Origin: Desulfuromonadales bacterium
GTDB lineage: Bacteria > Desulfobacterota > Desulfuromonadia > Desulfuromonadales > BM103
NCBI GenBank assembly: GCA_023701265.1
Contig: JAMPXI010000005.1
Span: forward strand, 1-47,670
Direction of reading: 5' to 3'
DNA length: 47,670 bases
Shown here: positions 25,879 through 46,988 of the stretch, one piece after another
Layout of the letters: every line of letters begins with the position of its first letter
How positions within the stretch are numbered: the first letter of the stretch is position 1
Made by a program: the position numbers and the translations under genes
The notes under the pieces: generated by a model
What the model saw: only the letters and a program-made list of their open reading frames with translations
What the model was told of the DNA's origin: nothing
Databases searched by the model: none

Positions 25879-27048
25879 ATGACGTTCGAATTCGATGACA
25901 GCGTAGAACAAACGGCCAGGATCAAGGTGGTCGGTGTCGGCGGCGGCGGCAGTAATGCGGTCAATACCATGATTCAGGCAGAAGTCGAGGGGGTCGAATT
26001 CATTGTCGCCAACACCGATGCCCAGGCGCTCAAAGCAAGCAAGGCCCCGGTGCGGGTTCAACTCGGCGGCCGGTTGACCAAGGGGCTCGGTGCCGGTGCC
26101 AACCCGGAAGTCGGGCGCGAGGCGGCCGAAGAAGATCGCGGTCGGATCGCCGATCTGCTGCAGGGTGCCGACATGGTGTTTCTCGCCGTCGGTCTGGGCG
26201 GCGGCACCGGTACCGGTGCCGCGCCGGTTATCGCGGACGTGGCCCGTGAACTCGGGGCCCTCACCGTGGCAATCGCGACCAAGCCGTTTGCCTTCGAGGG
26301 AGGAAAACGCCAGAAACAGGCGGAGCAGGGGGTTGAAGAGTTGAAGAAGGTGGTCGACTCGCTGATCCTGATCCCCAACGACAGATTGAGCGGCCTGGCC
26401 GGCAAAAAAACCGGCATCCTCGATGCCTTCAAACCGTCGGACGATGTGCTGCGCCAGGCGGTGCAGGGAATCTCCGACCTGATCACCACCCACGGCATGA
26501 TCAACGTCGACTTCGCCGACGTCAAGGCGGCGATGAGCGAGCGCGGCATGGCGATGATGGGGATCGGCATTGCCGAAGGGGAGAACCGCGCGGTCGAAGC
26601 CGCCCGCCAGGCGATCTGCAGCCCCCTCCTCGAGGATATCGACATCTCCGGCGCCAAGGGGGTGTTGGTCAACGTCACCGGTTCCTCGAGCATGACGATG
26701 GACGACTATCAGGAAGTTGCCAGGATCATCCATGAGAAGGTCCACGAGGACGCCAATATCTTCATCGGCCTGGTGATCGACGAATCGCTCGGCGAGCGGA
26801 TCAAGGTGACCGCGATCGCCACCGGTTTCGGCGACGCCTTCGACAAGCGCCGGCAAGGGCACAGGGAGACCACTCGCCCGACCCTGGCCGCTATTGCCGG
26901 CACCGGCCCCGTCAATCAGGGGGACATGGACGTGCCGGCCTACATCCGCAACCGCGACGGAGCCAAGCCCGCCCGCGCCCAGCGCACCGGCCTGGCCGAA
27001 GGCGAAGAGTACGATATTCCGGCGTTCCTGCGGCGGCGGGTGGACTGA
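25879..27048 (+). CDS. ftsZ: Cell division protein FtsZ
   Basis: [31 protein letters not shown]-terminal peptide [12 protein letters not shown] 25879; the ORF-track start 25837 is GTG. Confidence 0.98.
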
Positions 27049-27157: not shown

Positions 27158-30100
27158 CTACGGGCCAGGGTTGGCCCAGGGAGAGGCAAAGCCGTTGTCG
27201 TGACGATGGCAACCGGTGCAGTCCGGAGGGTTATGGCTGCCCGGTTCAGGTTGTATCTTCCGATGCTCCGGGGTTTTAACTTGGTATGGGGGGCCCCCCT
27301 CGGTGAGGGTGTGGCAGACTTCGCAGATCCGGTTGATCGGTGGAGGCTCTGGCCTTGCCACGCTGTCATCACCCAATCCGAAGCCGTAAGTGTTGGCGCC
27401 GTCGAAGCGCACCGGACCGCCGAAGTTGCTGTCGGGGCTGATGGTCTCAGGGAGAGGGTTGAGCGTAATGAACGGTTTGATCCCCGCCGCGTTAGGGGAT
27501 CGCTGCTCGTGGCAGGTCATGCAGGTGAACTCGCCATACTGTCCACCCGTCACCCCCCAGCCGCCGTTTGCCGCCCAGTAACCCTTGTTGTTGGCATTGA
27601 GGCTGTTGTGCATGAGTTTGCTCGCCGGCGTGGCGATCCAGTAAAATTCCTGTATCGCCGTCCCGATGACGCCATCCGGGTCCAGATAGGTCACCCTGAT
27701 ATTGTAGTTGGAAAGCGGCATGAGGCCGCCAACGGTGATCACCCGGGGCGATACGGTCAGTGGAACATCGCTGGCCGCGACCAGCCATTCGGGCCCGTTG
27801 ACGTCCATGTACTCCACCGTAATGGTGCCGTTGCCGTTGACGTCCTTGGCAAAGGGCGCAGTGACCTTGATGGTCGCCGAGTTCATTGGTTCGGCTAAGG
27901 CGATTCCGGCTTCTATCCGGTTGTCCGGCAAGGTTATGCCAATGAACTGCGGATTGACGCCATTGATGCCGTCGCCGTCAACGTAGGTGAGCCGGACATT
28001 GTAGGTGCTCCCCTGCTGCAGGCCGGTGATGGTCAGGCTGGCCGGCGAGGCGGCATGGGTGGCTTCGCTGACCCAGTTGGTCCAGCCGGAGTCGCCGGAA
28101 AGCTGGTAGTCGATCGTATAGGTGTTGTTGGTGTTGTAATCATCGGTATAGGGCATGGTGACGGCAATGGCTGTGGTCCCGTCTGTCGAGGCCGTCGCTG
28201 TGCCGGTGCTGGTGCGGTTGTCCAGCATGACGATGCCGGTGACCGTCTGGGGATTCACTGCTTCGACCGCATCGGTGTCGATGAAGGCACAGCGGATATC
28301 GTAGGTCTCTCCCTGGCTTAGTCCGCTGACGGTGGTGACGAAGGGCGAGGCGGCATGGGGGGCGGCCGTCACCCAGTTGCTCCAGCCGGCTGCACCGGAA
28401 AGCCGGTAATCCACCGTGTAGGTGTTGTTGCCGTTGGCGTCATTGCCGTAGGGCATGGTCACGTCAATAGCGGTCGGACTGGTACAGGCCGCAGCGCAGC
28501 TTTCCGGAGTGGTCTGGTCGCCGAGGATGTGGGGGCCGGAACCGCTGCCGCCTGCCGAATAGTTGCCGTTCGTGTCCCTGGCGAAAATCCGGTAGTAGTA
28601 GCCGGTCCCGTTGGTCAACCCGATATCGGTGCAACTCGTCCCCGGCTTGGCCACCACGCAGACGATCGTGCTGGCGCCGAGGACGCCGCCCGCCACGTAA
28701 CTTGCCCCCTCAACCGGGGTATCGGCAACCGGTGAGGTGCTCCTGAGGACGACGGCCTGGCTGTAATCGGCATCGCCGGGGTTTGTCCAGGTGAGGCTAG
28801 CCTGGCCATTACCGGGGGTAATCATAGCCCAGGCGGGATTGGCGGGAGAAAGATTGTCGATCGTCAGATCCGGGACACCCCACTCGGTGATGGTGATGGG
28901 GTTGCTCGTCGTGTGATCGATGGCGATAACGCCGGCGGGGACCAGTTGGCTCCCTCCTGAGGGCGGCGGCATGTCGGCGTGGGTTTTCGGCGTGATCCGG
29001 ACGTAGTAGAAGCCTGTTGTGGTCGATATGGTGATGGCGGGGGTGAACGACACCACTGGGCTGTCGGAGGATGGACCGGTCACGCTCCCGTAGATCGTGG
29101 TGCCAGCACCGTCGGTGATGTCGATCCGGCTGATTGCTGCGCCTCCCCCCGCACCCAGGTCCAGGGTCACTCCCTGGAAGGTGTCCGTGCCGGTATTGGT
29201 CGAGGGCAGAATCATGTTGCCCAAGGTGGCGCCTGCGCCGGGGGGGATGGTGATATCGGGAGTTCCCTGGCGGTAATTCTGCACCGTGGTGACTGGATAC
29301 AGGAAGGGCGCGCTGAAAGTCGGCACCGGCAGCGAACCGGTTCCGTTGGCCACCTTCGCGGTCAGTCCCATGGGGATCAGCAGGTCGTAGTTCCCGACCT
29401 TGGCTGAAATCGTGATGTATTCCCTGCCTCCATCTAAAAGCCCGTAGAAGTATGAGGCGTTGCCTTTCAGGAAGAAGTAGTAGGTATAACCGCCTGAATA
29501 GTCGTGGTAGCCCTCGACGCTGTAGCCTGCGGGAATACTCCCGGAACTCTGGGTCCAATTGGCAATGCTGAGAACAATTACCCCCGAGGGAGTCGTGGTG
29601 TTCTTGATTTCCCCGAGATAGACCGGGCCACTGGGGCCGTAGAATTTCACCTGGAAGGGGAAGTCGGGCGTACCCATCTTCAGCTCCCCGGTGCCGGCTC
29701 CCATGTACGGCTGGACCTCGACGTATTTGACGTCGGTGGAGCTGTAGGTGCCGTTCTTGACGAAGATGGTGTTGGCCAGCCACTGGTTGTCCGTTGCGGC
29801 GGTACCGGTCACCCGCACCTCGAACTGGCCCACCTCGTTGGTTGCCAGGGCTCCGGGATTCAGGGTTGCTATCCATTCATAAACGCCGTCCCCGAAATCG
29901 GAGAAGGTGCCGATGGTATATTCCGTCCCGGCGGTCCAGGCCGCACCGGTCATGACGTTTTTCGCTGAATGGACGACCAGCTGACTGCTGGTGAGCCCGG
30001 TCACCGGTGCGCCGAGCTGGTCCATGACCTTTGCCTTGAATTTGAAGGTGGTGGGGAACGAGGTGATGTAGTAGAGCGGGCGGTTGTCGAGAGTGCCGAT

Positions 30101-30259
30101 GTCGAGGGAAAGGTTATAGACTTTGCCGGAGGTGCCGGCCTGTGCCGGCCAGGGCAAAAGCGCCGTCACGAGGAGGAGCAGCACCGTTACTGCGCATTTT
30201 GCTCCGAAGTTGCCCATTTTTGCTCCCATCCCACTGAACTTTTCATTGACGGTTGTCAT
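27158..30259 (-). CDS. Exported Fn3-repeat protein with C-terminal tri-haem c module (protein C)
   Basis: Signal peptide (..LLPWPAQA-G); at least three tandem Fn3-like repeats; CMTCH, ICEVCHT, DCTGCHRH at the C-terminus. ATG 30259 with RBS gaggggg; the track start 30283 lies inside the upstream ORF. Confidence 0.85.
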   Translation of the reverse strand: MTTVNEKFSGMGAKMGNFGAKCAVTVLLLLVTALLPWPAQAGTSGKVYNLSLDIGTLDNRPLYYITSFPTTFKFKAKVMDQLGAPVTGLTSSQLVVHSAKNVMTGAAWTAGTEYTIGTFSDFGDGVYEWIATLNPGALATNEVGQFEVRVTGTAATDNQWLANTIFVKNGTYSSTDVKYVEVQPYMGAGTGELKMGTPDFPFQVKFYGPSGPVYLGEIKNTTTPSGVIVLSIANWTQSSGSIPAGYSVEGYHDYSGGYTYYFFLKGNASYFYGLLDGGREYITISAKVGNYDLLIPMGLTAKVANGTGSLPVPTFSAPFLYPVTTVQNYRQGTPDITIPPGAGATLGNMILPSTNTGTDTFQGVTLDLGAGGGAAISRIDITDGAGTTIYGSVTGPSSDSPVVSFTPAITISTTTGFYYVRITPKTHADMPPPSGGSQLVPAGVIAIDHTTSNPITITEWGVPDLTIDNLSPANPAWAMITPGNGQASLTWTNPGDADYSQAVVLRSTSPVADTPVEGASYVAGGVLGASTIVCVVAKPGTSCTDIGLTNGTGYYYRIFARDTNGNYSAGGSGSGPHILGDQTTPESCAAACTSPTAIDVTMPYGNDANGNNTYTVDYRLSGAAGWSNWVTAAPHAASPFVTTVSGLSQGETYDIRCAFIDTDAVEAVNPQTVTGIVMLDNRTSTGTATASTDGTTAIAVTMPYTDDYNTNNTYTIDYQLSGDSGWTNWVSEATHAASPASLTITGLQQGSTYNVRLTYVDGDGINGVNPQFIGITLPDNRIEAGIALAEPMNSATIKVTAPFAKDVNGNGTITVEYMDVNGPEWLVAASDVPLTVSPRVITVGGLMPLSNYNIRVTYLDPDGVIGTAIQEFYWIATPASKLMHNSLNANNKGYWAANGGWGVTGGQYGEFTCMTCHEQRSPNAAGIKPFITLNPLPETISPDSNFGGPVRFDGANTYGFGLGDDSVARPEPPPINRICEVCHTLTEGGPPYQVKTPEHRKIQPEPGSHNPPDCTGCHRHDNGFASPWANPGP
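27640..28500 (-). repeat. Three tandem Fn3-like coding repeats within protein C
   Basis: Recurrent (A/T)(I/T)xVTMPYxxDxNxNNTYTxDYxLSGxxGWxxWVxxAxHAASP...GLxQGxTYxxRxxxxDxDxxxxVNPQ, visible at DNA level (ggcgaggcggcatggg...cccagttg.tccagccgg). Confidence 0.75.
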
Positions 30260-30269
30260 GGCGTCCCCC

Positions 30270-33200
30270 TCACAGATCCGCATGGCAAGCGAAGCAACCC
30301 TTGCTCGTATCGCCCCACGTAGCCGGCTGGCTCAGATGACAAACCGTCGTGCAGCTCTTGGCCGCAGCATTGTAGGTGCCGCTGAACGGAACACTGTCGT
30401 GCGAGTTGTTTGCCGTCTTGTAGCCGTTGTTGCGCGTCCAGCCCAGGGGCTCGATGACGTTCGTGAACGGGCCAGGCTCAGGTTCAGGATCAGGCCAAAC
30501 CGCGAAGTCCGCGGCAGGCTTCAGCTGGGCCCGGGTGCGGAAGGTGCCGGACATGAACGCCACGTCGCGTGTGCCGTTCACGTGGTTCGCCCGGTTCGCG
30601 ATGCTGCCGGCGACGGGGTTGGTGTGGCAGGGCGTACAGGCAAACCCGGTTCCCTGGGCCGAATACTGGCCGGCTACGGTGACCGTCGCGGCATGGCAGG
30701 TCGGGCAGCTGATGGTGGTGGAGGTGGCCGGATCACCGTGACCAGCACCGGATCCGATCCCACCTCCTTTGGAGTAAAGGCCGCCCGGTCCATCGGGCGG
30801 GATCTTTTTGATGTTGTCGAAGTGCAGGCCGACCAGGTGGCCACCTTCCACGGGACGGTCCCAGCTTAGCTGGCTGGCATAGTGACTGTTGGCGCTGGCG
30901 CTGCCGACGCCACCGTTGGCGTAGGCCGGCGGGTCGCCATGGCAGCCGGCGCAGCGGTTGCCGCTAAACGTTCCGCCCCACTGTGGGGTTGAGGCATAGG
31001 TCCTGACAGTGGCGACCTGGCCGGAGCTGTGGCAGTAGATGTTGCTACAGACCGTTGCGGTGCCGGTGCCGGTCCGTCCTGCATCTGCCGGGTTGTTCTG
31101 TTTGAATCCGGTGGCCGCGGCGTTGTACAGCTCTATTTCGACGACACCGTTGCCATGCTTTGAGCCGTCCAGGGCGTGGCAGTTGCCGCAGTTGAACCCT
31201 TGCGACGTCGGCGTGGAAAGATTGCTGTCGCTGCCGTAAGCCGCACCGGTTCCATTCGTATGGGCAAGATGGGCTCCGCTGGCGGGCGGCAGCGCATGGC
31301 AGTCGCCGCAGGCCACCGTGCCGCCCCATTGGGGCGTGCCGGAGCCATGGCAGGAGATGTTGGCACAGGTGCCGTAGCCGTCGCCGGGTGCGGGGGTGCC
31401 GTTATAACTGCTGGAAGAACCGAAAATCGGATCAATATTAATGGTCACCCTGCCATTGACATGGTTGTCGAAGAGAGTCCTGGGCGGAGGGAGAAACACG
31501 GGAGTATGTCCGGGGTGACAGTTTTTGCAGCCGTTTGTAGCGCCACTGAGGGTGCTGTCATAGCGGTGACAGGTCATGCACTTGATCACCCCCGAGGTGT
31601 TGCCCGCCAGGTGAGCAGCGTGGCTGCCGCTACTGATGACCGGCCCTTCATCCCCGTGAATCCCGCTCTGGTGACAAGCGCCGCAGCCGAGACCGGTGCT
31701 GCTGACACCCCAAACCGGTGAGGCATAGTCGTCTGGGTTGCCAACGCCGCCGTCGGGTTGGGCATTCGAATGGCAATAGATGTACGTGCATGAGCTGTAG
31801 GCCCGAGGCGTTGTCCCGTCGGATGGCGGCGCGCTTCCTGTTGCAACATTGTAAATTTCCGCGCCGCCCCTGAGCCTTGAGTCCAAGGTATTGAAGGCCC
31901 AGTCGATTTTGCCATTGGCATGCTTCGCCTGGCCGGTCATGGTGTAGGGGCCGGTACCGGAGACGGTTCCGCTGTGGCAAGCGGCGCAGGCAATGTTGTA
32001 GCCACCTGCGATGGCATGGGTGCGGTGGCTGCCGCTGACCGGGTAGTCGCTATTGGAGCCCCCGTGACAGGAGCCGCAGGCCGCCGTGCCGGCGTCTCCC
32101 CACGAAGGGGTGGCGTTCCTGCCGCTTCCCGGATAGTTGCCATGGCAGTAGGTGGCGGCGCAGGCCCCGTAGCCATCACCGGGAGCTTTTGTCCCATCGT
32201 AGGCTGCAGTTGCGCCGTATAGCGTTGGCGGGAACAAGACATCGATCTCGTGGTTGACGTGCAGGATGTCCCTGTTATGACAGACCGATGCACAGCCGTT
32301 AAGACTATCGGAACCGACATAATTATGACAGACGGCACACTCGCCCATGCCGACCGGGTCCGGGCCTGCCAGCGACTGCAGATGTTTGGCGTGGCTTCCG
32401 GAAGTGATGTAAGGGGCCCAATTCCCGTAACTGCCCCGGTTGGCAAACCAGGCGTGTCCTTGATCGGCATTGTGGCAACTGCCGCAGGTCCCTTCAGCGA
32501 GTGCTCCCCAGGTCGGGGTTTGGTATTCTCCGGGGAGTCCGGTCAATGGGCCGCCGGTACTGGTCTGGGCAATACTGTGGCAATAGAGGTTGGCGCACTG
32601 GCCGTAGACTCCGGGGACGGTCGCCGATACCCCGGCCGAAGAGTCTTTATACGTCGCCCCCGTCAGGCGGGGATCTCCCGACACATTGAATGACCAGTCG
32701 GCCTGGCCGTTCACATGGGCGGCCGCATTCGTGCTGTGGCAGGTGGTGCATGCCAGATTTTGCCCGTAGATATAGGGGTTGGGTGGGTTGCTTCGGGTAT
32801 CATAATACCAGGTGTCACTCATGACATGGGTACGATGGCTGCCCCGCAGCGGTGGGTTGGTAGCTGTCGCGCCATGGCATTTACCGCAGGTGCCGGTGGT
32901 GGGATTATCCCAAGTCGGATTGAGATTGGTTCCGCCGTTGGCGGCCATGGTGCCGCCATGGCAATAGACATTAGTACAGGTCTTGGCGCCGGTGGTCGTG
33001 ACCGTCGTGTTGGCCTGGCTGGCATCGTAGGACACGCCGCTTTGGCCGTTGTAGGTTCCACCCCGGTAGGTGTCGCCAAACAGGGAAAAACCGAGGGTGA
33101 TGCTTTGCGGCTCGCCGTCGTTGTGGGTCGACCCGCTGCCGACACTGTTGGCATGGCAGGAGCCGCAGGGGTACTGCTTGGTGGTCGCGTGCACGGCATG

Positions 33201-34502
33201 CGCTCCGGGGCTGGTCGAGCCGGTTGGCCCCGGAGAGCCGACCAGTCCGCCCGGCCCGGTCGTGCCTGCCACGGGCGGCATCCCATGACAGGCGTTGCAA
33301 CTCGCGGCAAAGGCTCCTCCCGTCTGTCCGTGGCTGTGGCAGTCGGTACAGACGGCCGTGGCCGTGTGATATTCTCCCGCCCCAATTCCGATGGTCTTGG
33401 CGTCGCCATGACATTTTTCACAGTAGCCATCGGCCGAACCGTCGTTGCGGTCGTTCCAGAACGTGTACTTCAGGCCGCCATCAAGGACCGATGGAGAGCT
33501 GTAGTCAAGTCCCTCGGTCGCGCCGTAGGTCGTGGTCACGGCATCCTTGCGCAGCATAAAGTAATTCGGCAGCGCGGAGTCACTGGCATGGCCACCGTGG
33601 CAGACCATGCAGCCGACTTTTTCCCCGGACGCGTCGCCATGTGCCTGATAGGTATGGCAGGTCTTGCATAAACCCGATTTGTCGGCGCGCTTGGGACCGT
33701 TCGCGCGCAGGATGAAACCGTCGCCGCCGTTCGACGACAGGGCGGCGAAGTTCGCCGGGATGTCCGCCGTGTTTGCGTCGGAATCGGCAAAGTGTACCTG
33801 GTGGCAGCTGCCGCAGAGGATCTTGCCGTTGAACAGGCTGATCTGATCAGCATTATGGAGGTCTCCATCGTCCTCGGATGGCGCCGTCGCATATTTGCCG
33901 GGATGGGCCGCTGCCGAGGCGGTGTAGTCGATGTTGACCGGATGGGTCAGATTGGACATGCCGGAGCCTTGATTCCAGGTAACGTGACAGGCCAGGCACA
34001 TCTGTTGGGCAGACCCTGGACCCATGATCAGAAGCTGGGGGTTGGTGCGGTCGGCATGCGGGTTGTGGCAGCGTGAACAGGTGACTTTCCCCTGGGACGA
34101 GCCGAAGCGGCTGTAGAATTGCGGGTAAAGCGTCCGGGAAGGCGCCGACGCGCCGACGCTGGGTTGCGTGTCGGGAGCGCCCCAATTGTGAGAGGTCTGC
34201 CCCTTGCCGGGAATGAAGCCGGGGTTGTAGCCGCTGGCGTTGCTCGCATCGAGCAGGCTGAAGGCGGTATTGGTCGAACCGGTCGAGCTGTCGCCCAGCG
34301 CCAGATTCAGCGTATCGTCATGACAGGAGAGGCAGACGTTGCCTCCGCCGAGCTGTTCGACCGACAGGCTCGGGATGTGGCAATTCTTGCAGTCGAAGGT
34401 GTGAACGGCGGTTTCTGCGATGAGAGAATCGGGGATCAGGCATGCCAGAAGAGTAATAACAATAAGGATCGATCGGACGAGTAAGCCCCAAGGTCTAGCC
34501 AT
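30270..34502 (-). CDS. Giant exported multiheme c-type cytochrome, 34 candidate haem motifs (protein A)
   Basis: 1410 aa; N-terminal signal sequence; by eye 26 CXXCH, 6 CX4CH (CTNVYCH, CANLYCH, CAATYCH, CTYIYCH, CANISCH, CSNIYCH) and 2 CX3CH (CASVCH, CTTVCH). Matches the Geobacter CxxxxCH...CXXCH repeat family. Confidence 0.93.
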   Translation of the reverse strand: MARPWGLLVRSILIVITLLACLIPDSLIAETAVHTFDCKNCHIPSLSVEQLGGGNVCLSCHDDTLNLALGDSSTGSTNTAFSLLDASNASGYNPGFIPGKGQTSHNWGAPDTQPSVGASAPSRTLYPQFYSRFGSSQGKVTCSRCHNPHADRTNPQLLIMGPGSAQQMCLACHVTWNQGSGMSNLTHPVNIDYTASAAAHPGKYATAPSEDDGDLHNADQISLFNGKILCGSCHQVHFADSDANTADIPANFAALSSNGGDGFILRANGPKRADKSGLCKTCHTYQAHGDASGEKVGCMVCHGGHASDSALPNYFMLRKDAVTTTYGATEGLDYSSPSVLDGGLKYTFWNDRNDGSADGYCEKCHGDAKTIGIGAGEYHTATAVCTDCHSHGQTGGAFAASCNACHGMPPVAGTTGPGGLVGSPGPTGSTSPGAHAVHATTKQYPCGSCHANSVGSGSTHNDGEPQSITLGFSLFGDTYRGGTYNGQSGVSYDASQANTTVTTTGAKTCTNVYCHGGTMAANGGTNLNPTWDNPTTGTCGKCHGATATNPPLRGSHRTHVMSDTWYYDTRSNPPNPYIYGQNLACTTCHSTNAAAHVNGQADWSFNVSGDPRLTGATYKDSSAGVSATVPGVYGQCANLYCHSIAQTSTGGPLTGLPGEYQTPTWGALAEGTCGSCHNADQGHAWFANRGSYGNWAPYITSGSHAKHLQSLAGPDPVGMGECAVCHNYVGSDSLNGCASVCHNRDILHVNHEIDVLFPPTLYGATAAYDGTKAPGDGYGACAATYCHGNYPGSGRNATPSWGDAGTAACGSCHGGSNSDYPVSGSHRTHAIAGGYNIACAACHSGTVSGTGPYTMTGQAKHANGKIDWAFNTLDSRLRGGAEIYNVATGSAPPSDGTTPRAYSSCTYIYCHSNAQPDGGVGNPDDYASPVWGVSSTGLGCGACHQSGIHGDEGPVISSGSHAAHLAGNTSGVIKCMTCHRYDSTLSGATNGCKNCHPGHTPVFLPPPRTLFDNHVNGRVTINIDPIFGSSSSYNGTPAPGDGYGTCANISCHGSGTPQWGGTVACGDCHALPPASGAHLAHTNGTGAAYGSDSNLSTPTSQGFNCGNCHALDGSKHGNGVVEIELYNAAATGFKQNNPADAGRTGTGTATVCSNIYCHSSGQVATVRTYASTPQWGGTFSGNRCAGCHGDPPAYANGGVGSASANSHYASQLSWDRPVEGGHLVGLHFDNIKKIPPDGPGGLYSKGGGIGSGAGHGDPATSTTISCPTCHAATVTVAGQYSAQGTGFACTPCHTNPVAGSIANRANHVNGTRDVAFMSGTFRTRAQLKPAADFAVWPDPEPEPGPFTNVIEPLGWTRNNGYKTANNSHDSVPFSGTYNAAAKSCTTVCHLSQPATWGDTSKGCFACHADL

Positions 34503-34592
34503 AATCTCCCCCTGGCCTCAACTTGGAGGCGTAATCACGTTAAATGCTCGGTCATAACGCGGGGCGGATGTGGATAGTGCATAGTATCAAGA

Positions 34593-34647
34593 CATCGGCC
34601 CGACAGTCGCCGAGCCAATGCTAAAGACGGGCTTGCACGCAAACCCG
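34593..34647 (-). other. Potential structured 5' leader RNA of the 34-haem cytochrome gene
   Basis: Two consecutive hairpins on the minus-strand transcript: CGGGTTTG-CGTG-CAAGCCCG (34647-34628) and CATTGGCTCG-GCGACTGT-CGGGCCGATG (34620-34593). Confidence 0.5.
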
Positions 34648-34677
34648 AAAACCCCACCCTCTCGGAAATTAAAGAAA

Positions 34678-34693
34678 TGCAATTTATGAGCCA
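34678..34693 (-). promoter_or_regulatory. Sigma-54 (RpoN) -24/-12 promoter of the 34-haem cytochrome gene
   Basis: Minus strand TTTGGCTCATAAATTGCATTT: GG (34692-34691)-N10-GC (34680-34679). Confidence 0.75.
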
Positions 34694-34750
34694 AATATCT
34701 GTAATCGTTAACTGTTTTTTGTGCCTGTTAGGACTGCCCCATATCAAAAC

Positions 34751-34786
34751 CGATCAACCTCCTCACCAAGGTGAGGAGGTTGATCG
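34751..34786. repeat. Perfect 17-bp inverted repeat (terminator hairpin or regulator site)
   Basis: cgatcaacctcctcacc-aa-ggtgaggaggttgatcg; arms are exact reverse complements. Confidence 0.85.
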
Positions 34787-34845
34787 CTCAGCTTACCTGC
34801 AGCGGCGGGGGGCTGTGCCAGCGTTTTCTTGAGGGTAGATTCAGT

Positions 34846-34882
34846 AAAGCGCCTCCTGGCCATCGGCCGGGAGGCGCTTTCT
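34846..34882. terminator. Stem-loop downstream of the 27-haem cytochrome gene, likely terminator
   Basis: aaagcgcctcctggcc-atc-ggccgggaggcgctttctttt. The minus-strand T-run is short (tttactg). Confidence 0.6.
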
Positions 34883-34913
34883 TTTGGTTGAGCCGTGTCT
34901 GGGCAGATGCCGG

Positions 34914-37900
34914 TTATGGTGAATAAGTGCGGGTGTTGTACTCCTGAAGGTACTGCTGATGGTCCGCATCCTCCGGGTACGACTCGGTCGCCGGGTACGG
35001 GAAGCTGCTCATGCCATGGAATGGCAGCGGTTCAACGGTGTTGGTCACTCGCAGCGACTTGTAATACAGGTCCGACTTGACGAAGAAGCTTCGCGCGAAA
35101 CCTGACTGCGGCTGATCCGGCACAGGGAAGCTCACATCAACCTTGTCCCCTTCCCGCATGATCACGAATTTGTCGTCACTGCTCGACAGGAGCGGGGTCA
35201 CATCACCGTAACGTGTGAACTTCCCGTAGCTCGGATATTCCGGATTGACCGGGAGGGTGGCATCCGTGGCGACAATCCGGCTGCTCAGATTGCTCATCGC
35301 ATGGATGGCGTTGCCGGCGAATTGCAGGTCGGCGGTCATCGCCGGCAACTCCAGTACATTGACATCGACCGGCGCCGATTGATCGAGGCGGATCCGGTCG
35401 ATCAGCCAGCGTGACTTCGGCCGCATCCCGGTATAGATCCGGATACGGTGATCATTGCTTAGGAAGACGTTCGCCAGGTCGACGACCATGGTCTTGAGAT
35501 CGCCGGTCGGGGTGCCGAACGACTTGACCTTGACCCAGTTGCCGGTCTGGTCGACCACATGAATGGCCGGAGCGACCAACTGGGTGGCGGGCAACGATTC
35601 GGAGCCGAACAGTGTCCAGCCGTCGATCAGCAGTTTGGCAAACTCCGGATGCTCGACAGGACCGAAGTCGACCGTATAGTAGAAGCCGGCGTCGAAGGGC
35701 TCCAGATGGGCCGGGGTATTGTCGACGCTGAGCATCGCCGCGAGGGCATCGTTGCCGTTGCGGTCGTAGGCGGAGACGGGGGCAAGGGCGTCCTTGGCCG
35801 TGTAAATCTTGAACGGGTTGACATAGCCGTAGACGTAGGTGGCCTCGCCCCAGGAGGTGTGAACTTCGTAGCCTTCCGGAGCATCGACCGCCAGCAGGGT
35901 TGCCGTGTCGAGATAGGTGATCTCCGGCAGGGACTCGCGGATCTTGACGTGGAACTGACCGTCGCTGCCCGGCACCAGTCCGTTAACGGCGGCGAGTTCG
36001 GGGTGATACTGGGTGACCGCCCTGTCGGCTGCTGTCGGCCGCAAGGCAAGGATCGGCCCTGCAAGGTCGGTCATGTAACTGTAGCTGTCGCCGGTCCAGC
36101 CGAAGACCAGGGGACAACTGCTTGTCCAGCAGCCGGAGCCGACATCGTAGAAGTATTCGGCTGCCGACCAGGTTGAGCTGGCATCCTGGTGCACCGCGTC
36201 ACGTGCCATGACCTGCCAGGTAACACCCCAACCGGCATACATCGTAAAGCTCCAACTGGTGGTTCCCGCCGGCAGCCAGCCGGAGTCGCCGAAGCTGTCG
36301 GTATGGACGTAATATTGGACAGAATCGCCATCCGGGCTGGTGACCGGATTCCAACTCACGGTCACAGGGGTATCGGCGCAGCCGCTGTCGAAGCTGCCGT
36401 GGGAGATGATTGTCGGCGCCGCAGGCGGGGACACTGTCAGGGTCCGGAACGATGCGGTATTCGACCAGGAGGACAGTGCGGCAACATTGCTGATATCGCG
36501 CGCCTGGACCCGCCAGTACCAGGTCTTGCCGACATCGGCAACGCCGAACGCGACTGAGGCTGTTGTCGCGGGATTCCAGGTGAGGACTTTCTTGTTGATA
36601 CTGTTGAATGCCGTGACGGTATCGACTTCCACCTGGTAATCGAACGGTCCGCCGCCGTAGCTCGTGGAGGGGCTCCAGGAGAGGGCGATCGAGCATCCGC
36701 CCGGGCAGACCGTGTCCGCCGGCGCGGCAAGGCCGCTTGGTTTGCTGGGGGTCGGATAGATGAGGTGGAACGATTTGGCCGGCGACCAATCTGATGGCAC
36801 CGCTGTATGCGCCTGGTACCGGGAGCGAACCCTGAAGTACCAGGTCTTGTCGACCGTAGGAAGGCTGACGTTGAGTGTGACGTTCGCGTCGGTAGCGATC
36901 GTCCAGGGAGCATTTGCATCGACGCTGCCGAAGCCGGGGTCGTCGTCGATCTGGAGTTCGTACTCGACCGCACCGTAGTTGGGGTTGTTGACCCCCGGGA
37001 ACCAGGCCAGATTGACCAGGCAGCTTCCCGTGCAGTAAAGGTTCGCTTCGTCCTTTGGTGTTGGGACACCAGGGGTGGTGCTTGCCTCGTAGATAAGGAA
37101 GGAGGCCCTGGATGAATATGCCGATTCCGGAGTGGTCGCGTTGGCATCGCGCGCCTTGACCCGCCAGTACCAGGTCTTGGCAGTGGCCAGGGTGCCGGAC
37201 GGCACGGTTACGGTTGAGCCGGTAACTGTGCCAGAAACCCAAGCAAGGGTTGCGTTGGGAGTGGCAAAGGCCGGGTCGTCATCTATCTGCACATAGTACT
37301 GGAACGGTCCGGGGCCGCCGTTGCTCGAGGCGGTCCAGGAGAGGTCGACCGAACAACTGCCCGTGCAGGTCGGATTCGCCGGCGTCGACAGGTTCGTCGG
37401 CGTGGTGGGCGTGGGTTGCGCGGTTCTGAACCAGTAATACGGGTAAGAAGTAGAGACCACTTCGGGGTGGTTTGTATCCCGCGCCTTGACCCGCCAGTAC
37501 CAGTAGGTATTGGACGCCAACGGGCCGAGGGTGACGCTGGTGGCGGAAATCCAGCCGGACGTTGCATCGATGCTGCCGTAGCTGGAGTCGTTGTCGACTT
37601 CCACCAGGTACTGAATTGGTCCGCCGTCTGGATCCGTGGTGGGATTCCAAGAGAAAGTGAGTGAGCATGCCGTCGGGCAGGCCGGAGATGAATAGGGGGA
37701 TGGTGATATCACCGACGACACCGGGTTCGGCGGCAGATTGAGATATGCCGTTCGGTCGCCCGATGCAACCTGCTGACCCTTGACGCTTGTCGAACGGACC
37801 CGGTAGTTGAAGGTGCTGTGGTTGGGGAGTCCGGTAGGCCAGGATCCCACGGAAACACCCACATTGTGTGTGTTTACCCAGGTGCCGTCAGTAGCGGTCA

Positions 37901-40900
37901 GGCCATAGGCGGCCGTCGGTCCATAATCAACGAAGCTGTTGCTGGCGATGTTGGTGTCCCAAGTCACAAAGGCGCGATTTCCCGACCAATAGTCACTGCT
38001 CTGGCCTGTTGTCGGTCCCGAGGTAATCGCCAGGGTGGCTGTTTCCCCATACCACGGGGTCACCTGATTCCAACGCTGGTTGGTTCCGGCCCCGGTATTT
38101 CCCTCGTGGCAGGCGTTGCTGCCCGGGATCCTGCCGCTCCCCCCGTCGCCGGAGCCGGAGGTGGCAGGGTAGGGGATCCCGCCTGTGCGTCCTTTGTGCG
38201 TGGGATCGAGGCAGTTGGTCACCATCAGGCGCGGCAGCGACGAGCCGATGTGCGGCGTGTGGCACTTCGAGCAGGAGTAGTTGTGCTTGAAGTTGCCGTT
38301 GGCGGTCTTCCATCCCTTGACCGCTTCGTGCACGCGGTCCTTGCTGTTCCAGGCATGAGTGGTCCCGGTAAGGCTGGTTTTGGGATGACAGTTGAGGCAC
38401 AGGCCGGCAAACTGGGTGTCGGTCTGGGTGATGCCGGCGACCAGGGTGTTCAGATCCCAGTAGTTGCCAAAGGTGTTCTGGTCGATATGCAGGAATTCCC
38501 CTACGGATAACCCGGTATTGTTGCTATCGGGGGCGACATCCTCCTTGTAGGGGGAGGTCAGCCAGGTCCCTTTCAGCAAGGGCACCCCGTACTGCTGGCT
38601 GGCGCCGAGGCTCGGGCTGACGCCGTGCGGGTCGTGGCACGGGGTGCATAGGCCGTTGATGCTGGCCATGGCGGGAGATTGCAGGGGCGATGACGCGCCG
38701 AAGTGCCCGCCTTTGTATGCTGGAATGGCCTTGTAGGGATAGCGCTGCTCCGCACCGGCGTTCCCCGGAGCAAGGTCGGGCGTATCGTAGTAGCCGAGGA
38801 TCGGTTGGGCGGCACCGAAGGTCGACTGATATCCCCAGGGCTTCGATTCCGAACTGGCGGCATTCAGATGGCAATCGAAGCAAAGACTGGCCCCGGCATT
38901 CCGGACGTTGCTCGTTCCCACGGTGCCGCCGGCGACCGGCTTGTACGTCGCCGTGTAGCCTCCCTTGCTGGCCTGAGTGTCCTTGAGCAGACCGCCGTTG
39001 ACCGTGGCGCTTGCGTAACTGGTGGTTTTGCCGGCCACATTCGAGCCGTGGGAATTGTGGCAGTCGTAGCAGGCGACGTTGACCGTCCCTATCCGGGTAT
39101 TCGACCAGGTTTCTCCCAGATCCCAGCCGCCCTGATTAGCCGTCGCATTGCCGTGGGCCGAGTAGGCTTTGCTTTGGGCGTTCTTTGGCGTGACGTTGGC
39201 GCCGCCGTATTTCCCCCACGGCGTGGTGCCGGCCTGGCTGTAGCGTCTGGCGACGCTGGTGCCGTCCCAGGCATACTGTTTCGGGGTCTTGCCGTCACCG
39301 AACGGCGTGGCGGCATCGTTTGCATCGCTGTGGCAGCCAAGGCAGTGACTGTTGAGCTTGGTAATCTCGCCGCGGCTGCCGTCGGTCTTGTATTGGATGG
39401 CGGTTGCCCCACCGGTGTAGCTGGTCGGACGCGCAGCTGTTCCATAGACCACCAGGTCGATCAGGGCGGCCGAGGTGCCGCCGTGATAGGTCTGGTTGAC
39501 CGTGCCGTCACCGTTCGCCTCCCAGTGGCATTGATAGCAGTGCTGACCGGTCAGGCTCGTCCCCTGGACGTGGTGGGAGTTGCCGGCAAACTGGCCGGTG
39601 ATGGCCGCCCGGTTTCCCTGGACAACAGTATGGCAGCCGCCGCAGACCTCAGTCACACCCCACACCGGGGCGGCCGCGCCGTGGCAGTTGACGTTGGCGC
39701 AGGTGCCGTAGCCGTCTCCGGGGCCGGGGGTGCCGGAATAGGCGGCGCTGGCGCCGTACTTGGTCGGCGGGAACTTGACGTCGATCTGGTGGTTGACGTG
39801 CAGACTGCCCTGGTTGTGGCATAGCGAAGCACAGCCGGCCAGGTCGTCGGAGCCGGCGTAATTGTGACAGGCCCCGCAACGACTCGGTCCGTTGCTCCCG
39901 CCGCCCACCGCGGTGGTCAGGTAGGTCAAGTGCTTGGGATGGCTCCCCGAACTGATCTCGGTGAAACTCATCCCTCGTCCGGCCCAGAACGAATGACCCT
40001 GGTCGGCGTAATGGCAGGAGCCGCAGTTTCCTTCGAGCCGGGTTCCCCAGGTCGGGGTCTTGTATTCTCCGGCCTGGCCGGTCAGGGCTCCGCCCGTGCT
40101 GGTCTGAACAATGCTGTGACAATAAAGGTTGGAGCACTGGCCATAGATGCCGGGAACCGGGGCTGCTGCGCCGCTCATCCCCCCTTTGTACCGGGCTCCG
40201 GCCAGCCAGGGGCGCACCGTGGTATCGAAGGACCACTCGGTCTTGCCGTCGACATGGGCGGCGGCAGCGTTGTTGTGGCAGGTGAAACACGCCAGGTTGC
40301 GGCCGTAAATATAATTATTGAATGGCGATTCCGTATTGGGCGCATACCACCAGGTGTCGTTCATGACATGGGTCCGGTGACTGCCCGATTGCGGCGGGCT
40401 GGTGGACGTCGCGCCGTGGCATTTGCCGCAGGTGCCGGTGCTGGCATCGTTCCAGACCGGCGTCGTGTCGGTCCCGCCGTTGCTTGCCATGGTCCCGCCG
40501 TGGCAGTAGATGTTCACGCACGTCCTGGTGCCGTCGCGGCTCACCGTGGTGGTGGCCTGGCTGGTGTCGTAGGCGACCGCGGCCTGGCCGTTGTAGGTGC
40601 CCCCGACATACGCCCCGTTGAACAGGGAGAAGCCAAGGGTTACCGTCTGCGGCGCGATGCTGATGTGTTTGGCGCCGCTGCCGACGCTGTTGAGATGGCA
40701 GGTGCTGCACGGGTATGGCTTACCCACCGAATGCGCGTTGTGGGCCCCGGCCATCGACGATCCGGTTGTCCCTGGCATGTTGACCAGGCCGTTCGGGCCA
40801 CCTAGAGTGGCAGTGCCGGGCGGCACGCCGTGGCAGGTCGTGCAGCCTGCGACGAAGGTGCCGTCTCCCTGCGAGTGCAAGTGGCATTCGGTGCAGATCG

Positions 40901-42038
40901 CCGCGGCCACGTGATACCTGCCGGCGCCATCACCGATCGTCCTGGCGTCGCCATGACACTTTTCGCAATATCCGGCAGCCACCCCATCCATCTGATCGTT
41001 CCAGTAAGTGAACTTCTGGTTTGCGTCCAGTACGCCGGCGGAGCTGTAATCGAGTCCGCTCACCGCGCCATAGGTGGTGGTCGTGGCGTTCTTGCGCAGC
41101 ATGTAGTAGTTGGGTGCCACCGGGTCATAGGAGTGCCCGCTGTGGCAGACCATGCAGCCGGCTTTTTCTCCGGATGCGTCGCCGTGTGCCTGATAGGTAT
41201 GGCAGGTTCGACAGAGTGCCGATTTGTCGGCGCGCCCGGCACCATCCACGCGCAGCAGCTTGCCGTCGCCGCCGCCCGAGGACAGGGTGGCAAAATTTTC
41301 CGGAATATCCGCCGTGATTGCGTTGGAATCGGCGAAGTGCGTCTGGTGGCAGCTGCCGCAGAGAAGCTTGCCGCCGAACAGACTGATCCGGCCATCGGTG
41401 CCGAGATCGCCGTCATCCTCCGGCGGGGCCGCCGCATACCTGCCGGGGTGGGCTGCCGCCGCGGCGGTATAGTCGATGTTGACCGGATGGGTCACGTTGG
41501 TCATGCCGGACCCCTGATTCCAGGTGACGTGGCACGCCAGGCACATCTGCTGGGCAGAGCCCGGGCCGGTGACCAGGAGTTGGGGGTTGGTGCGGTCGGC
41601 ATGCGGATTGTGGCAGCGGGAACAGGTGACTTTCCCCTGGGACGACCCGAAACGGCTGTAGAATTGCGGGTGAAGCGTGCGGGACGGCGCCACTGCGCCG
41701 GCGCGGGGCTGCGCATCGGGAGCGCCCCAGTTGTGCGAGGTCTGCCCGCTGCCGGCAAGCGCGCCGGGGTTGTAGCCCATGGCATTGCTCGCATCGATAT
41801 TGTTGAAGGCGGAATTGGTCGAACCGGTCGTGCCGTCACCCAACGCCATGTTCAGCGTGTCGTCATGGCAGGAGAGGCAGACGTTGCCGCCGCCGAGCTG
41901 TTCAACCGACAGGCTCGGAATATGGCAGTTCTTGCAGTCGAAGGTGTGAACAGCGGTTTCTGCCGTGATGGTGTCGGGAATCAGGTATGCCAGAAGTGCG
42001 AAAAGAAGTGCGACGAATAAAACCCGTGTTGTTGCCAT
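34914..42038 (-). CDS. Giant exported multiheme cytochrome with Fn3-like repeats and a haem-free C-terminal domain (protein B)
   Basis: ~2374 aa; by eye 27 haem motifs in residues ~37-1261 (23 CXXCH, 3 CX4CH, 1 CX3CH), then Fn3-like repeats, then a ~400-aa haem-free domain. ATG 42038 with AGGAGG RBS; the track start 42044 is GTG. Confidence 0.93.
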   Translation of the reverse strand: MATTRVLFVALLFALLAYLIPDTITAETAVHTFDCKNCHIPSLSVEQLGGGNVCLSCHDDTLNMALGDGTTGSTNSAFNNIDASNAMGYNPGALAGSGQTSHNWGAPDAQPRAGAVAPSRTLHPQFYSRFGSSQGKVTCSRCHNPHADRTNPQLLVTGPGSAQQMCLACHVTWNQGSGMTNVTHPVNIDYTAAAAAHPGRYAAAPPEDDGDLGTDGRISLFGGKLLCGSCHQTHFADSNAITADIPENFATLSSGGGDGKLLRVDGAGRADKSALCRTCHTYQAHGDASGEKAGCMVCHSGHSYDPVAPNYYMLRKNATTTTYGAVSGLDYSSAGVLDANQKFTYWNDQMDGVAAGYCEKCHGDARTIGDGAGRYHVAAAICTECHLHSQGDGTFVAGCTTCHGVPPGTATLGGPNGLVNMPGTTGSSMAGAHNAHSVGKPYPCSTCHLNSVGSGAKHISIAPQTVTLGFSLFNGAYVGGTYNGQAAVAYDTSQATTTVSRDGTRTCVNIYCHGGTMASNGGTDTTPVWNDASTGTCGKCHGATSTSPPQSGSHRTHVMNDTWWYAPNTESPFNNYIYGRNLACFTCHNNAAAAHVDGKTEWSFDTTVRPWLAGARYKGGMSGAAAPVPGIYGQCSNLYCHSIVQTSTGGALTGQAGEYKTPTWGTRLEGNCGSCHYADQGHSFWAGRGMSFTEISSGSHPKHLTYLTTAVGGGSNGPSRCGACHNYAGSDDLAGCASLCHNQGSLHVNHQIDVKFPPTKYGASAAYSGTPGPGDGYGTCANVNCHGAAAPVWGVTEVCGGCHTVVQGNRAAITGQFAGNSHHVQGTSLTGQHCYQCHWEANGDGTVNQTYHGGTSAALIDLVVYGTAARPTSYTGGATAIQYKTDGSRGEITKLNSHCLGCHSDANDAATPFGDGKTPKQYAWDGTSVARRYSQAGTTPWGKYGGANVTPKNAQSKAYSAHGNATANQGGWDLGETWSNTRIGTVNVACYDCHNSHGSNVAGKTTSYASATVNGGLLKDTQASKGGYTATYKPVAGGTVGTSNVRNAGASLCFDCHLNAASSESKPWGYQSTFGAAQPILGYYDTPDLAPGNAGAEQRYPYKAIPAYKGGHFGASSPLQSPAMASINGLCTPCHDPHGVSPSLGASQQYGVPLLKGTWLTSPYKEDVAPDSNNTGLSVGEFLHIDQNTFGNYWDLNTLVAGITQTDTQFAGLCLNCHPKTSLTGTTHAWNSKDRVHEAVKGWKTANGNFKHNYSCSKCHTPHIGSSLPRLMVTNCLDPTHKGRTGGIPYPATSGSGDGGSGRIPGSNACHEGNTGAGTNQRWNQVTPWYGETATLAITSGPTTGQSSDYWSGNRAFVTWDTNIASNSFVDYGPTAAYGLTATDGTWVNTHNVGVSVGSWPTGLPNHSTFNYRVRSTSVKGQQVASGDRTAYLNLPPNPVSSVISPSPYSSPACPTACSLTFSWNPTTDPDGGPIQYLVEVDNDSSYGSIDATSGWISATSVTLGPLASNTYWYWRVKARDTNHPEVVSTSYPYYWFRTAQPTPTTPTNLSTPANPTCTGSCSVDLSWTASSNGGPGPFQYYVQIDDDPAFATPNATLAWVSGTVTGSTVTVPSGTLATAKTWYWRVKARDANATTPESAYSSRASFLIYEASTTPGVPTPKDEANLYCTGSCLVNLAWFPGVNNPNYGAVEYELQIDDDPGFGSVDANAPWTIATDANVTLNVSLPTVDKTWYFRVRSRYQAHTAVPSDWSPAKSFHLIYPTPSKPSGLAAPADTVCPGGCSIALSWSPSTSYGGGPFDYQVEVDTVTAFNSINKKVLTWNPATTASVAFGVADVGKTWYWRVQARDISNVAALSSWSNTASFRTLTVSPPAAPTIISHGSFDSGCADTPVTVSWNPVTSPDGDSVQYYVHTDSFGDSGWLPAGTTSWSFTMYAGWGVTWQVMARDAVHQDASSTWSAAEYFYDVGSGCWTSSCPLVFGWTGDSYSYMTDLAGPILALRPTAADRAVTQYHPELAAVNGLVPGSDGQFHVKIRESLPEITYLDTATLLAVDAPEGYEVHTSWGEATYVYGYVNPFKIYTAKDALAPVSAYDRNGNDALAAMLSVDNTPAHLEPFDAGFYYTVDFGPVEHPEFAKLLIDGWTLFGSESLPATQLVAPAIHVVDQTGNWVKVKSFGTPTGDLKTMVVDLANVFLSNDHRIRIYTGMRPKSRWLIDRIRLDQSAPVDVNVLELPAMTADLQFAGNAIHAMSNLSSRIVATDATLPVNPEYPSYGKFTRYGDVTPLLSSSDDKFVIMREGDKVDVSFPVPDQPQSGFARSFFVKSDLYYKSLRVTNTVEPLPFHGMSSFPYPATESYPEDADHQQYLQEYNTRTYSP
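36170..37700 (-). repeat. Tandem Fn3-like coding repeats in protein B, four carrying a CX3C pair
   Basis: CPTACSLTFSW, CTGSCSVDLSW, CTGSCLVNLAW, CPGGCSIALSW plus a degenerate fifth (SGCADTPVTVSW); each followed by a TWYWRV(K/Q)ARD or equivalent strand. Confidence 0.8.
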
Positions 42039-42206
42039 TGCCACCTCCTGCTCCCCCCCGGGAAAAGGTGAAATCGCGTACAGGTTTAGTCAAAAAGCGA
42101 AACGCGACCTATGGGCCGGCCATGGAAGAAGAAGTCCATCAGCCATAAGCTTTGTTGGTCCGGCTCGCTGGTCAGAGCAAGAATTTTACGAGTCACCACG
42201 GTAAAG

Positions 42207-42223
42207 TTGCAATATTTGAGCCA
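42207..42223 (-). promoter_or_regulatory. Sigma-54 (RpoN) -24/-12 promoter of the 27-haem cytochrome gene
   Basis: Minus strand TGTTGGCTCAAATATTGCAACTTT: GG (42222-42221)-N10-GC (42210-42209). Confidence 0.75.
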
Positions 42224-42263
42224 ACATTTTGAAATCACTAACAATTATATCTTTGGTAAGAAT

Positions 42264-45068: not shown

Positions 45069-46988
45069 ATGGATGATTGCAAAACCATCACTTGTCGTCT
45101 GATTCGCCTGATCACCTTCATCGACCTGCCGATCAAAAAGAAGTTCCATCTGTTTGGCATCGGTGTGCTCTTCTGGTTCATGGTGATGGCCGGGTTGACG
45201 GTGATCGGAATGTGGGGGATCAGCACCCGTTACAATCAGATCGTCAACCATGCCGTCCCCCAGGACAAGGTGGTGCAGAAGATCATCCGCAACCTGCAGG
45301 CGATGACCATCGATGCCTCCAACATCGTCAAGGCCAACGAAAAGGTGACGGTAACGCTCCTGCAGGATCTTTCGACCAAGCGACTGCGCGATGTGCGCGA
45401 ATTCAGCACGGCGCTTGCCGTGGGCGGAGAAGTCAACGACTATTCGCACGATTCCGGCACGCTGCTGGAAACCCTGCATACCACCTCGCTGACCGGCAAT
45501 CCGGAAGGGGTCGCCTATGTGCGTGAACTGAACACCCTGATCGACCAGATCGACCAGTCGTACAGCGCTTTTTCCCAGCACAAGTTGCAGGTTCTGGATG
45601 GGACTGCGGAAAACGGCGTAGTTCTCGCGGGAAAGTTTGACGACCTGGAAACGAAAATCCACGGTGCCAGTCAGCTCTCCAGCAACTTCTCTTCAAAACT
45701 TTCGGACCTCTACCATAAGTCGGCGGACACGATCTCGGAGATTATCCGGACGACCGTTCTGACCATTATCGCCGTACTGCTGGTGGCGGTGATCCTGCTG
45801 GGAATCTTCACGCGCTGGATCTCTCAGGCCCTGGCCAAGCCGATCGGGGAGATCATCGAGCAGATTCATTCGGTGGGGACCGGGGACGTCGATCTGACCA
45901 ACAAGATTCAGATCACTTCGCGTGATGAGATCGGTCAGCTCTCGCAGGAATTCAACGGCCTGATGGACACGGTCTACTCAATGACCATGTTCAAAAAGGT
46001 GATCGAGGAGGATACGAACCTCGAGGATGTTTATGCCCGCCTTGGCGAGGTGTTCCGCGGTGAACTGGGGCTCGAGGATTTTGTGATCTACGAGATCAGT
46101 GAGAACCAACGCGACATGGTGCCGGTCTATCCGCTGGCGCTTGATGCCAAGGCGTTGGCCTGTAGTGCCGATATCCTGACTAATTGCGAACTGTGCCGAG
46201 CCAAGAAGACCGGGCACGAGATCTCCTCGCTGGCCTATCTCCAGGTCTGCAAGCAGTTCAAGCAGGAAACCGGCAAGGTGCACATCTGCATCCCGATGAT
46301 GATCGCTGGCCGCGCCGGCGGCGTGGTGCAGTTCCTGTTTGACGACCCGCAAGGGGATCAGGCGCGGATCGAGATGATCCATGAGAAGATCTTCAAGGCC
46401 GAGGCCTACCTGAAGCAATCGCTGTCGGTCATCGAGGCCAAGCGCCTGATGAACACGTTGCGCGAATCAGCCCTCAAGGATCCGTTGACCGGCCTGTACA
46501 ACCGCCGTTTCCTGCAGGATCATGCCAACCATATCATTTCCGGGACGTTGCGGCGGAAGAAGTGCCTTGGCATGATCATGTGCGATCTCGACTATTTCAA
46601 GCAGGTCAACGATCAGCACGGTCACGATGTCGGCGATGTCGTCCTCAAGGATACCGCGCAGCTGATCCTCAAGGGGGTGCGTGACGCCGATATCGTCCTG
46701 CGTTTCGGCGGCGAGGAGTTCTTCATCCTGCTCACCGATATCAATCCGGGCGATGCCATTATCGTCGCTGAAAAAATTCGCGCAAGCTTCGATGAGAACA
46801 AGTTCAAAATTCCGAGCGGCGTCCTGAAAAAGACCCTGAGCCTCGGAGTGAGCGAATTCCCGAACGACAGCGAAGGGTTCTGGCAGTGCATCAAATATGC
46901 GGACGTGGCTCTCTACAAGGCCAAGGAGACCGGCCGCAACAAGGCCATCCAGTTCGACCCCAAGATGTGGGAAGGGGAGCAATTTTAA
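45069..46988 (+). CDS. Membrane diguanylate cyclase: periplasmic sensor, HAMP, Cys-rich GAF-like region, GGDEF
   Basis: Two TM segments; HAMP (ISQALAKPIGEIIEQIHSVGTGDVDLTNKI); DPLTGLYNRR...CDLDYFKQVNDQHGHDVGD...RDADIVLRFGGEEF. Confidence 0.92.
   Translation: MDDCKTITCRLIRLITFIDLPIKKKFHLFGIGVLFWFMVMAGLTVIGMWGISTRYNQIVNHAVPQDKVVQKIIRNLQAMTIDASNIVKANEKVTVTLLQDLSTKRLRDVREFSTALAVGGEVNDYSHDSGTLLETLHTTSLTGNPEGVAYVRELNTLIDQIDQSYSAFSQHKLQVLDGTAENGVVLAGKFDDLETKIHGASQLSSNFSSKLSDLYHKSADTISEIIRTTVLTIIAVLLVAVILLGIFTRWISQALAKPIGEIIEQIHSVGTGDVDLTNKIQITSRDEIGQLSQEFNGLMDTVYSMTMFKKVIEEDTNLEDVYARLGEVFRGELGLEDFVIYEISENQRDMVPVYPLALDAKALACSADILTNCELCRAKKTGHEISSLAYLQVCKQFKQETGKVHICIPMMIAGRAGGVVQFLFDDPQGDQARIEMIHEKIFKAEAYLKQSLSVIEAKRLMNTLRESALKDPLTGLYNRRFLQDHANHIISGTLRRKKCLGMIMCDLDYFKQVNDQHGHDVGDVVLKDTAQLILKGVRDADIVLRFGGEEFFILLTDINPGDAIIVAEKIRASFDENKFKIPSGVLKKTLSLGVSEFPNDSEGFWQCIKYADVALYKAKETGRNKAIQFDPKMWEGEQF

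Follow-up and report, generated by a model that had tools for sequence, protein, structure and literature searches.

The closest described parallels to the element considered here are the cytochrome OmcZ and the MccA/SirA sulfite reductases, in which a c-type haem is held by a CXnCH motif with a long spacer. In OmcZ the motif of haem 1 contains a 14-residue loop located at the subunit interface (PMC9473688), and removal of this loop is stated to impair the reduction of soluble acceptors (PMC11208441); MccA has a CX15CH haem site with a dedicated attachment apparatus (PMC7096707). A study that counted haem motifs took only n = 2 to 5 (PMC12545173), so that sites of the kind described below are missed. 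At the level of the whole protein the nearest described kin are the giant CxxxxCH/CxxCH cytochromes of Geobacter, and at the level of physiology the porin-cytochrome conduits of the MtrCAB and GSU2203/GSU2204 types. Here we analyze a stretch of 47,670 nucleotides (the window) from a Desulfuromonadales bacterium (assembly GCA_023701265.1, contig JAMPXI010000005.1), in which three minus-strand open reading frames (ORFs), A, B and C, encode exported haem proteins. The giant cytochrome locus is itself of a known type; what is new, and the part worth following, is a nonahaem module in A in which one haem site appears to be split by a long insert. The features that carry the argument are:

34914..42044, minus strand: gene A, an exported giant cytochrome of 2376 amino acids with 27 standard haem motifs and one split motif
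30270..34502, minus strand: gene B, an exported cytochrome of 1410 amino acids with 34 haem motifs
27158..30283, minus strand: gene C, an exported protein of 1041 amino acids with an Fn3-type body and a tri-haem tail (3 CxxCH)
38106..39644, minus strand: nonahaem module of A, residues 801-1313, with 8 CxxCH and the split site; also found as stand-alone proteins of ~600 amino acids
38106..38213, minus strand: split haem-site candidate in A, Cys1278, 33 residues, then Cys1312-His1313

The three ORFs occupy the gap between ftsZ (ending at 27048) and a radical SAM gene (starting at 42562), in agreement with the initial annotation, which had described three consecutive exported minus-strand genes filling the interval between the dcw cluster and the radical SAM region. 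Its hand counts of 27, 34 and 3 haem sites are likewise exact: A has 23 CxxCH, 1 CxxxCH and 3 CxxxxCH, and B has 26 CxxCH, 2 CxxxCH and 6 CxxxxCH. This richness is far from chance, since shuffling of the residues yields only 0.07, 0.17 and 0.002 CxxCH per protein for A, B and C, respectively. The total of about 64 motifs given there thus holds for the standard motifs but overlooks one likely site in A, C1278...C1312-H1313, with which the haem-binding sites across the three proteins come to ~65. Judged by eye, A, B and C all have a signal-peptide-like N-terminus.

The split site follows the eighth CxxCH of the module (residue 1258), which stands in a doublet context of the form CxKCHxxH...RLMxTN; then comes Cys1278, and from this residue, where the second CxxCH of the doublet would be expected, the chain reads C-L-D, continues into a Gly-rich insert and ends in the lone C1312-H1313. 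In an alignment of 80 members Cys1278 is kept in 80/80 and the Cys-His pair in 76/76, the four exceptions being cut-off sequences. Across all loci, including the stand-alone proteins of ~600 residues, C-X(n)-CH is kept in 112/112 complete sequences, with n ranging from 25 to 105 (median 56), and a Cys at positions -3 to -5 of the split-site CH is absent from all of them; every complete sequence hence combines two conserved cysteines, a histidine after the second and no nearer canonical Cys, as a long-spacer haem c site should. The insert of the stand-alone proteins differs (CF..GP.GLR..., no His at +5), but the Cys and the Cys-His are still kept. This conservation is not circular, because the peptide patterns used to find the homologues lie elsewhere in the module.

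The eight CxxCH of the module are fully conserved, and so are ten non-motif His in both the giant and the stand-alone groups (two of them with one or two exceptions), which would suffice as distal ligands of nine haems. Neither Pfam nor NCBIfam has a model dedicated to the module. In the named genome collection it is present at 144 places, in Geobacterales, Desulfuromonadales and Nitrospirota by record title, and the best 80 of these were kept, corresponding to 79 distinct loci. Within the class it is found in 51 of 279 genomes (38 of 189 among those of good quality), the stand-alone form consisting of a signal peptide and then the module, ~600 amino acids in all. A search of viral contigs with the module gave no match. 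At three loci (L049, L050, L052) giant haem-free proteins, with Fn3/laminin-G domains in L049 and L052, overlap the 3' end of nonahaem-module cytochrome genes.

On these grounds we read the split motif, with its hypervariable loop, as holding a c-type haem in A, such that CX33CH would bear the ninth haem of the module. The main rival is that no haem is bound here and that C1278 and C1312 form a conserved disulfide closing a variable loop, leaving A with 27 haems. Conservation of both cysteines is expected for a disulfide too, and the split region was modelled without confidence in an AlphaFold prediction of A residues 778-1345 (64 sequences; mean predicted local distance difference test (pLDDT) 70, predicted TM-score (pTM) 0.74), a model for which Foldseek found no match in the PDB at E <= 0.001. 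A disulfide, however, leaves the invariant histidine after the second Cys unexplained; the site occupies the expected place of the second member in a CxxCH..H...CxxCH doublet; the module has no other conserved non-motif Cys to set beside its ten conserved non-motif His; and the CXnCH sites of OmcZ and MccA, with n = 14-15, do carry haem. We consequently regard the disulfide as unlikely.

A haem-bearing split site would resemble OmcZ in having one haem on a long-spacer, non-canonical motif, with the additional residues exposed as a loop. It differs in spacer length (14 residues in OmcZ versus 33 in A and 25-105 in its relatives) and in lacking any sequence relation to OmcZ in the PDB search; more generally, neither A, B and C nor the module showed a sequence relation to the filament cytochromes of solved structure (OmcE/OmcS/OmcZ). 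With the MccA/SirA sulfite reductases it shares a long-spacer CXnCH haem c site, but MccA is an octahaem enzyme that needs its dedicated apparatus, whereas the site of A lies in a nine-haem module of the electron-transfer type and its spacer is longer and variable. To our knowledge the split site would be the longest and most variable CXnCH site, and no CXnCH spacer above 15 was found in the open-access text searched. For MccA a spacer of CX17CH is also given.

We think it fairly probable that this is a widespread nonahaem module bearing a c-type haem on a motif with a hypervariable insert of 25-105 residues, that the insert is a tolerated, fast-evolving surface loop beside the haem, serving varied acceptors or partners or escape from phages, and that counting with n = 2-5 misses a haem in every member. 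In A the insert would then project from the haem core and present a variable surface loop to a partner or acceptor, in the manner of the 14-residue loop of OmcZ. Separately, other regions of the giants at five loci (L121, L126, L127, L135, L137) show more cases of a lone Cys-His, here with spacers that are shorter (about CX7CH to CX11CH).

The remainder of A comprises the following parts:

39660..42044, minus strand: A residues 1-795, N-terminal part with a signal peptide and a haem array of 19 motifs, ~68% identical to the matching part of B
36135..37997, minus strand: A residues about 1350-1970, Fn3/immunoglobulin-like repeats with CxxxC pairs
34917..36134, minus strand: A residues about 1971-2376, C-terminal domain without a Pfam match, common to several relatives

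Both A and B score well over the curated cut-off of 27 bits for TIGR01904/PF09698 (GSu_C4xC__C2xCH), with 77.8 and 150.5 bits, respectively, and they also match the cytochrome c7 and doubled-CXXCH models; going by these matches they are members of the known Geobacter CxxxxCH/CxxCH giants, with which they share mixed CxxxxCH/CxxCH repeats, export and a length of >1000 residues. The difference is that A carries the extra nonahaem module with its split site. C gave no cytochrome match above cut-off in NCBIfam and consists of the Fn3 body and tri-haem tail only. Such giants are frequent in the order (A was matched in 32 of 58 related genomes and the TIGR01904 model in 20 of 26), and the locus is an ordinary member of the Geobacter-type giant cytochrome repertoire. 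A and B are 68% identical over ~805 aligned residues and divergent beyond, and they most likely arose by duplication of a haem array of ~800 residues. This duplication is not recent, because the shared part is 72% identical at the nucleotide level and its longest identical run is 26 nt; the same figures led us to reject a recent gene conversion between the two genes. Nor is A a unique chimera, as its whole architecture (N-module/repeats/nonahaem/Fn3) recurs alone in 8 of the 79 named loci, e.g. in Geomobilimonas luticola, Geobacter sp. AOG1 and Pelotalea chapellei. In another genome a large non-haem exported protein is followed by three or more giant cytochromes in tandem, all with the A/B N-terminal array (L057, G008:C150, 7910-19867).

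The initial annotation had pointed out the lack of a porin-cytochrome conduit, an NHL or propeller protein and a small filament cytochrome. This holds for the window, where none of A, B and C (27158-42044) is a porin, but not for the host genome (2.72 Mb in 180 contigs, 87% complete), whose other contigs carry a homologue of OmcE, an FG-GAP propeller protein and an MtrB-like porin fragment. Contig C155 (L044, G000:C155, 464-14627) has an operon-like set coding for an FG-GAP/PEGA/Fn3 protein, a tetrahaem protein of 268 amino acids and a 59-haem giant of 2318 amino acids, adjoined by a sigma-54-type response regulator and a histidine kinase. The best PDB match of the tetrahaem protein (E 1e-22) is 7tfs, the OmcE filament, and the giant is a paralogue of the A/B N-terminal array, being 41-49% identical to it; this giant is the point of likeness between the two gene sets, from which the window differs in having neither a tetrahaem filament protein nor a propeller protein. 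The porin fragment, MtrB/PioB-like, is at the end of contig C154. The porin-cytochrome conduits would share their physiology with the present locus, which differs from them in having no porin gene and in that neither A nor B is a conduit cytochrome of the decahaem kind. Because conduit, filament and propeller parts exist elsewhere in the genome, an extracellular electron-transfer lifestyle is supported, and no particular role for A-C. Two further observations concern other cytochromes: a 4-haem gene overlapping a giant at locus L119 seemed OmcE-like and was set aside, its best PDB matches being weak and to other proteins; and on contig C103 (L144, G000:C103, 1658-6824) a prolyl isomerase (PPIase) gene precedes genes for doubled-CXXCH cytochromes of 26 and 16 haems, and these two ORFs share 25 nt.

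An extracellular electron-transfer role for A and B is accordingly plausible from their family. Of the earlier description as an extracellular electron-transfer locus, the family assignment stands, borne out by the TIGR01904/PF09698 matches, the paralogy with the giant of the OmcE-type operon and the spread of the A module in Geobacterales and Nitrospirota; a special three-protein assembly is not supported. The likeliest role for A and B would be to pass on and store electrons at the outer membrane or beyond it, with conduits encoded elsewhere in the genome supplying them. They could instead be periplasmic electron stores (capacitors) or periplasm-spanning wires, a doubtful reading that draws on their ordinary signal peptides, on a haem content that is high for protein size and on a locus with no outer-membrane anchor, secretion gene or conduit gene. 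Against a periplasmic location, the 2376-residue A with its Fn3/immunoglobulin-like repeats looks like an exported surface protein, the gene of its paralogue neighbors one for an OmcE-type filament, and relatives adjoin giant Fn3/laminin-G proteins. We also considered whether B is a lipoprotein, given LLAC at residue 21, and find this doubtful, because A has a Tyr at the aligned place and both share a later AETA cleavage-like site.

The three genes were not found to be conserved together in relatives: in the 79 named loci the A module has no B and C neighbors, and this includes the 8 loci with the whole A architecture. Nearest to conservation is a genome of the same genus (G002), where an orthologue of the C tail (C residues 900-1038, 72% identical) lies at a contig end near ftsZ and A/B-like pieces lie on other short contigs, so that the trio may exist there. 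In that genome (L039, G002:C35, 518-5551) multicopper-oxidase genes stand between the C orthologue and ftsZ/ftsA, and an intervening ORF contains a stretch of undetermined bases. A scan of the named genome collection with C alone gave no match, and C-like Fn3/tri-haem segments typically form the N-terminal head within one giant chain (G001, G045, G056, G006, G015 and several named loci). Compared with these chains, C is evidently a free-standing version of the Fn3/tri-haem head that relatives fuse to giant cytochromes, and it probably serves, with its tri-haem tail, as an accessory or docking protein produced along with B. That such heads precede haem repeats in the same chain, and that the C stop is followed within ~110 bp by ftsZ on the other strand, might also suggest a remnant, i.e. 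a head that has lost its haem array and has no function of its own. This is quite unlikely, as the ORF of C is intact, exported and overlaps that of B by 14 nt, and the G002 tail ends at the same place with no haem array after it.

The transcriptional organization of the locus involves three further elements:

42208..42223, minus strand: sigma-54 (-24/-12)-like site TGGCTCAAATATTGCA upstream of A
34678..34693, minus strand: sigma-54 (-24/-12)-like site TGGCTCATAAATTGCA upstream of B
34846..34880, no strand assigned: terminator-like hairpin of 16 pairs between A and B, with its T tail on the plus strand

The locus looks like two transcription units, A alone and B with C, rather than one, because A and B are kept apart by this strong hairpin and an intergenic gap of ~410 bp, while the ORFs of B and C overlap. 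The same gap holds another perfect hairpin of 16 pairs (34751-34786), upstream of the sigma-54-like site of B. The likelier start of A is the ATG at 42038, two codons inside the longest ORF (42044) and 5 nt after an AGGAGG; the locus end at 42230 given earlier needs correction, as it falls in the leader of A, just upstream of the sigma-54-like site. Scanning the whole window with the pattern TGGCNYN5TTGCW recovered two matches only, where 0.5 are expected, and these sit 160-190 bp before A and before B. In G. sulfurreducens RpoN has been linked to extracellular cytochrome genes (PMC2725144), which fits the two promoter-like sites; a site of this kind also precedes 4 of 56 genes in relatives, where 0.3 are expected. 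A and B may be switched on from sigma-54 promoters. GEMM-type riboswitches (for cyclic di-GMP or cyclic GMP-AMP, c-di-GMP/cGAMP) had been suspected by eye before both genes and were rejected, no Rfam match being found upstream of either at any threshold used. Slightly past the radical SAM and tpx-like genes, on the plus strand at 45069-46988, the window encodes a HAMP-GGDEF diguanylate cyclase, with a possible tie to the control of biofilm or surface growth.

Taken together, we favor, with moderate confidence, the view that A and B are secreted Geobacter-class giant cytochromes that relay or store electrons at the outer membrane or beyond it, that the ninth haem of the nonahaem module is held by CX33CH, and that C is an accessory made with B. 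Several points weigh against it: 1) the AlphaFold pLDDT is <50 across the split site, and as the region could not be resolved, haem binding there is something we infer; 2) the PDB sequence search returned no match for A, B, C or the nonahaem module profile; 3) no lipobox is consistent between A and B, no conduit gene is present in the locus, and the outer-surface placement is argued from relatives only; 4) 7 of 100 shuffles give at least two sigma-54-like sites, and among 56 genes in relatives only 4 have such a site upstream.

Should haem be bound at the split site, the machinery of cytochrome c maturation would have to bring together cysteines 26 to 106 positions apart, a spacing that would far exceed the CX14-15CH cases in the literature searched, and the haem counts of >100 cytochromes would be one too low. 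The stand-alone members of ~600 amino acids put the question within reach of small proteins. A hypervariable loop pinned beside a haem would, if true, provide a concrete, testable place where minerals, electrodes, partners or phages are contacted, and could be part of the reason for the quick divergence of surface cytochromes.

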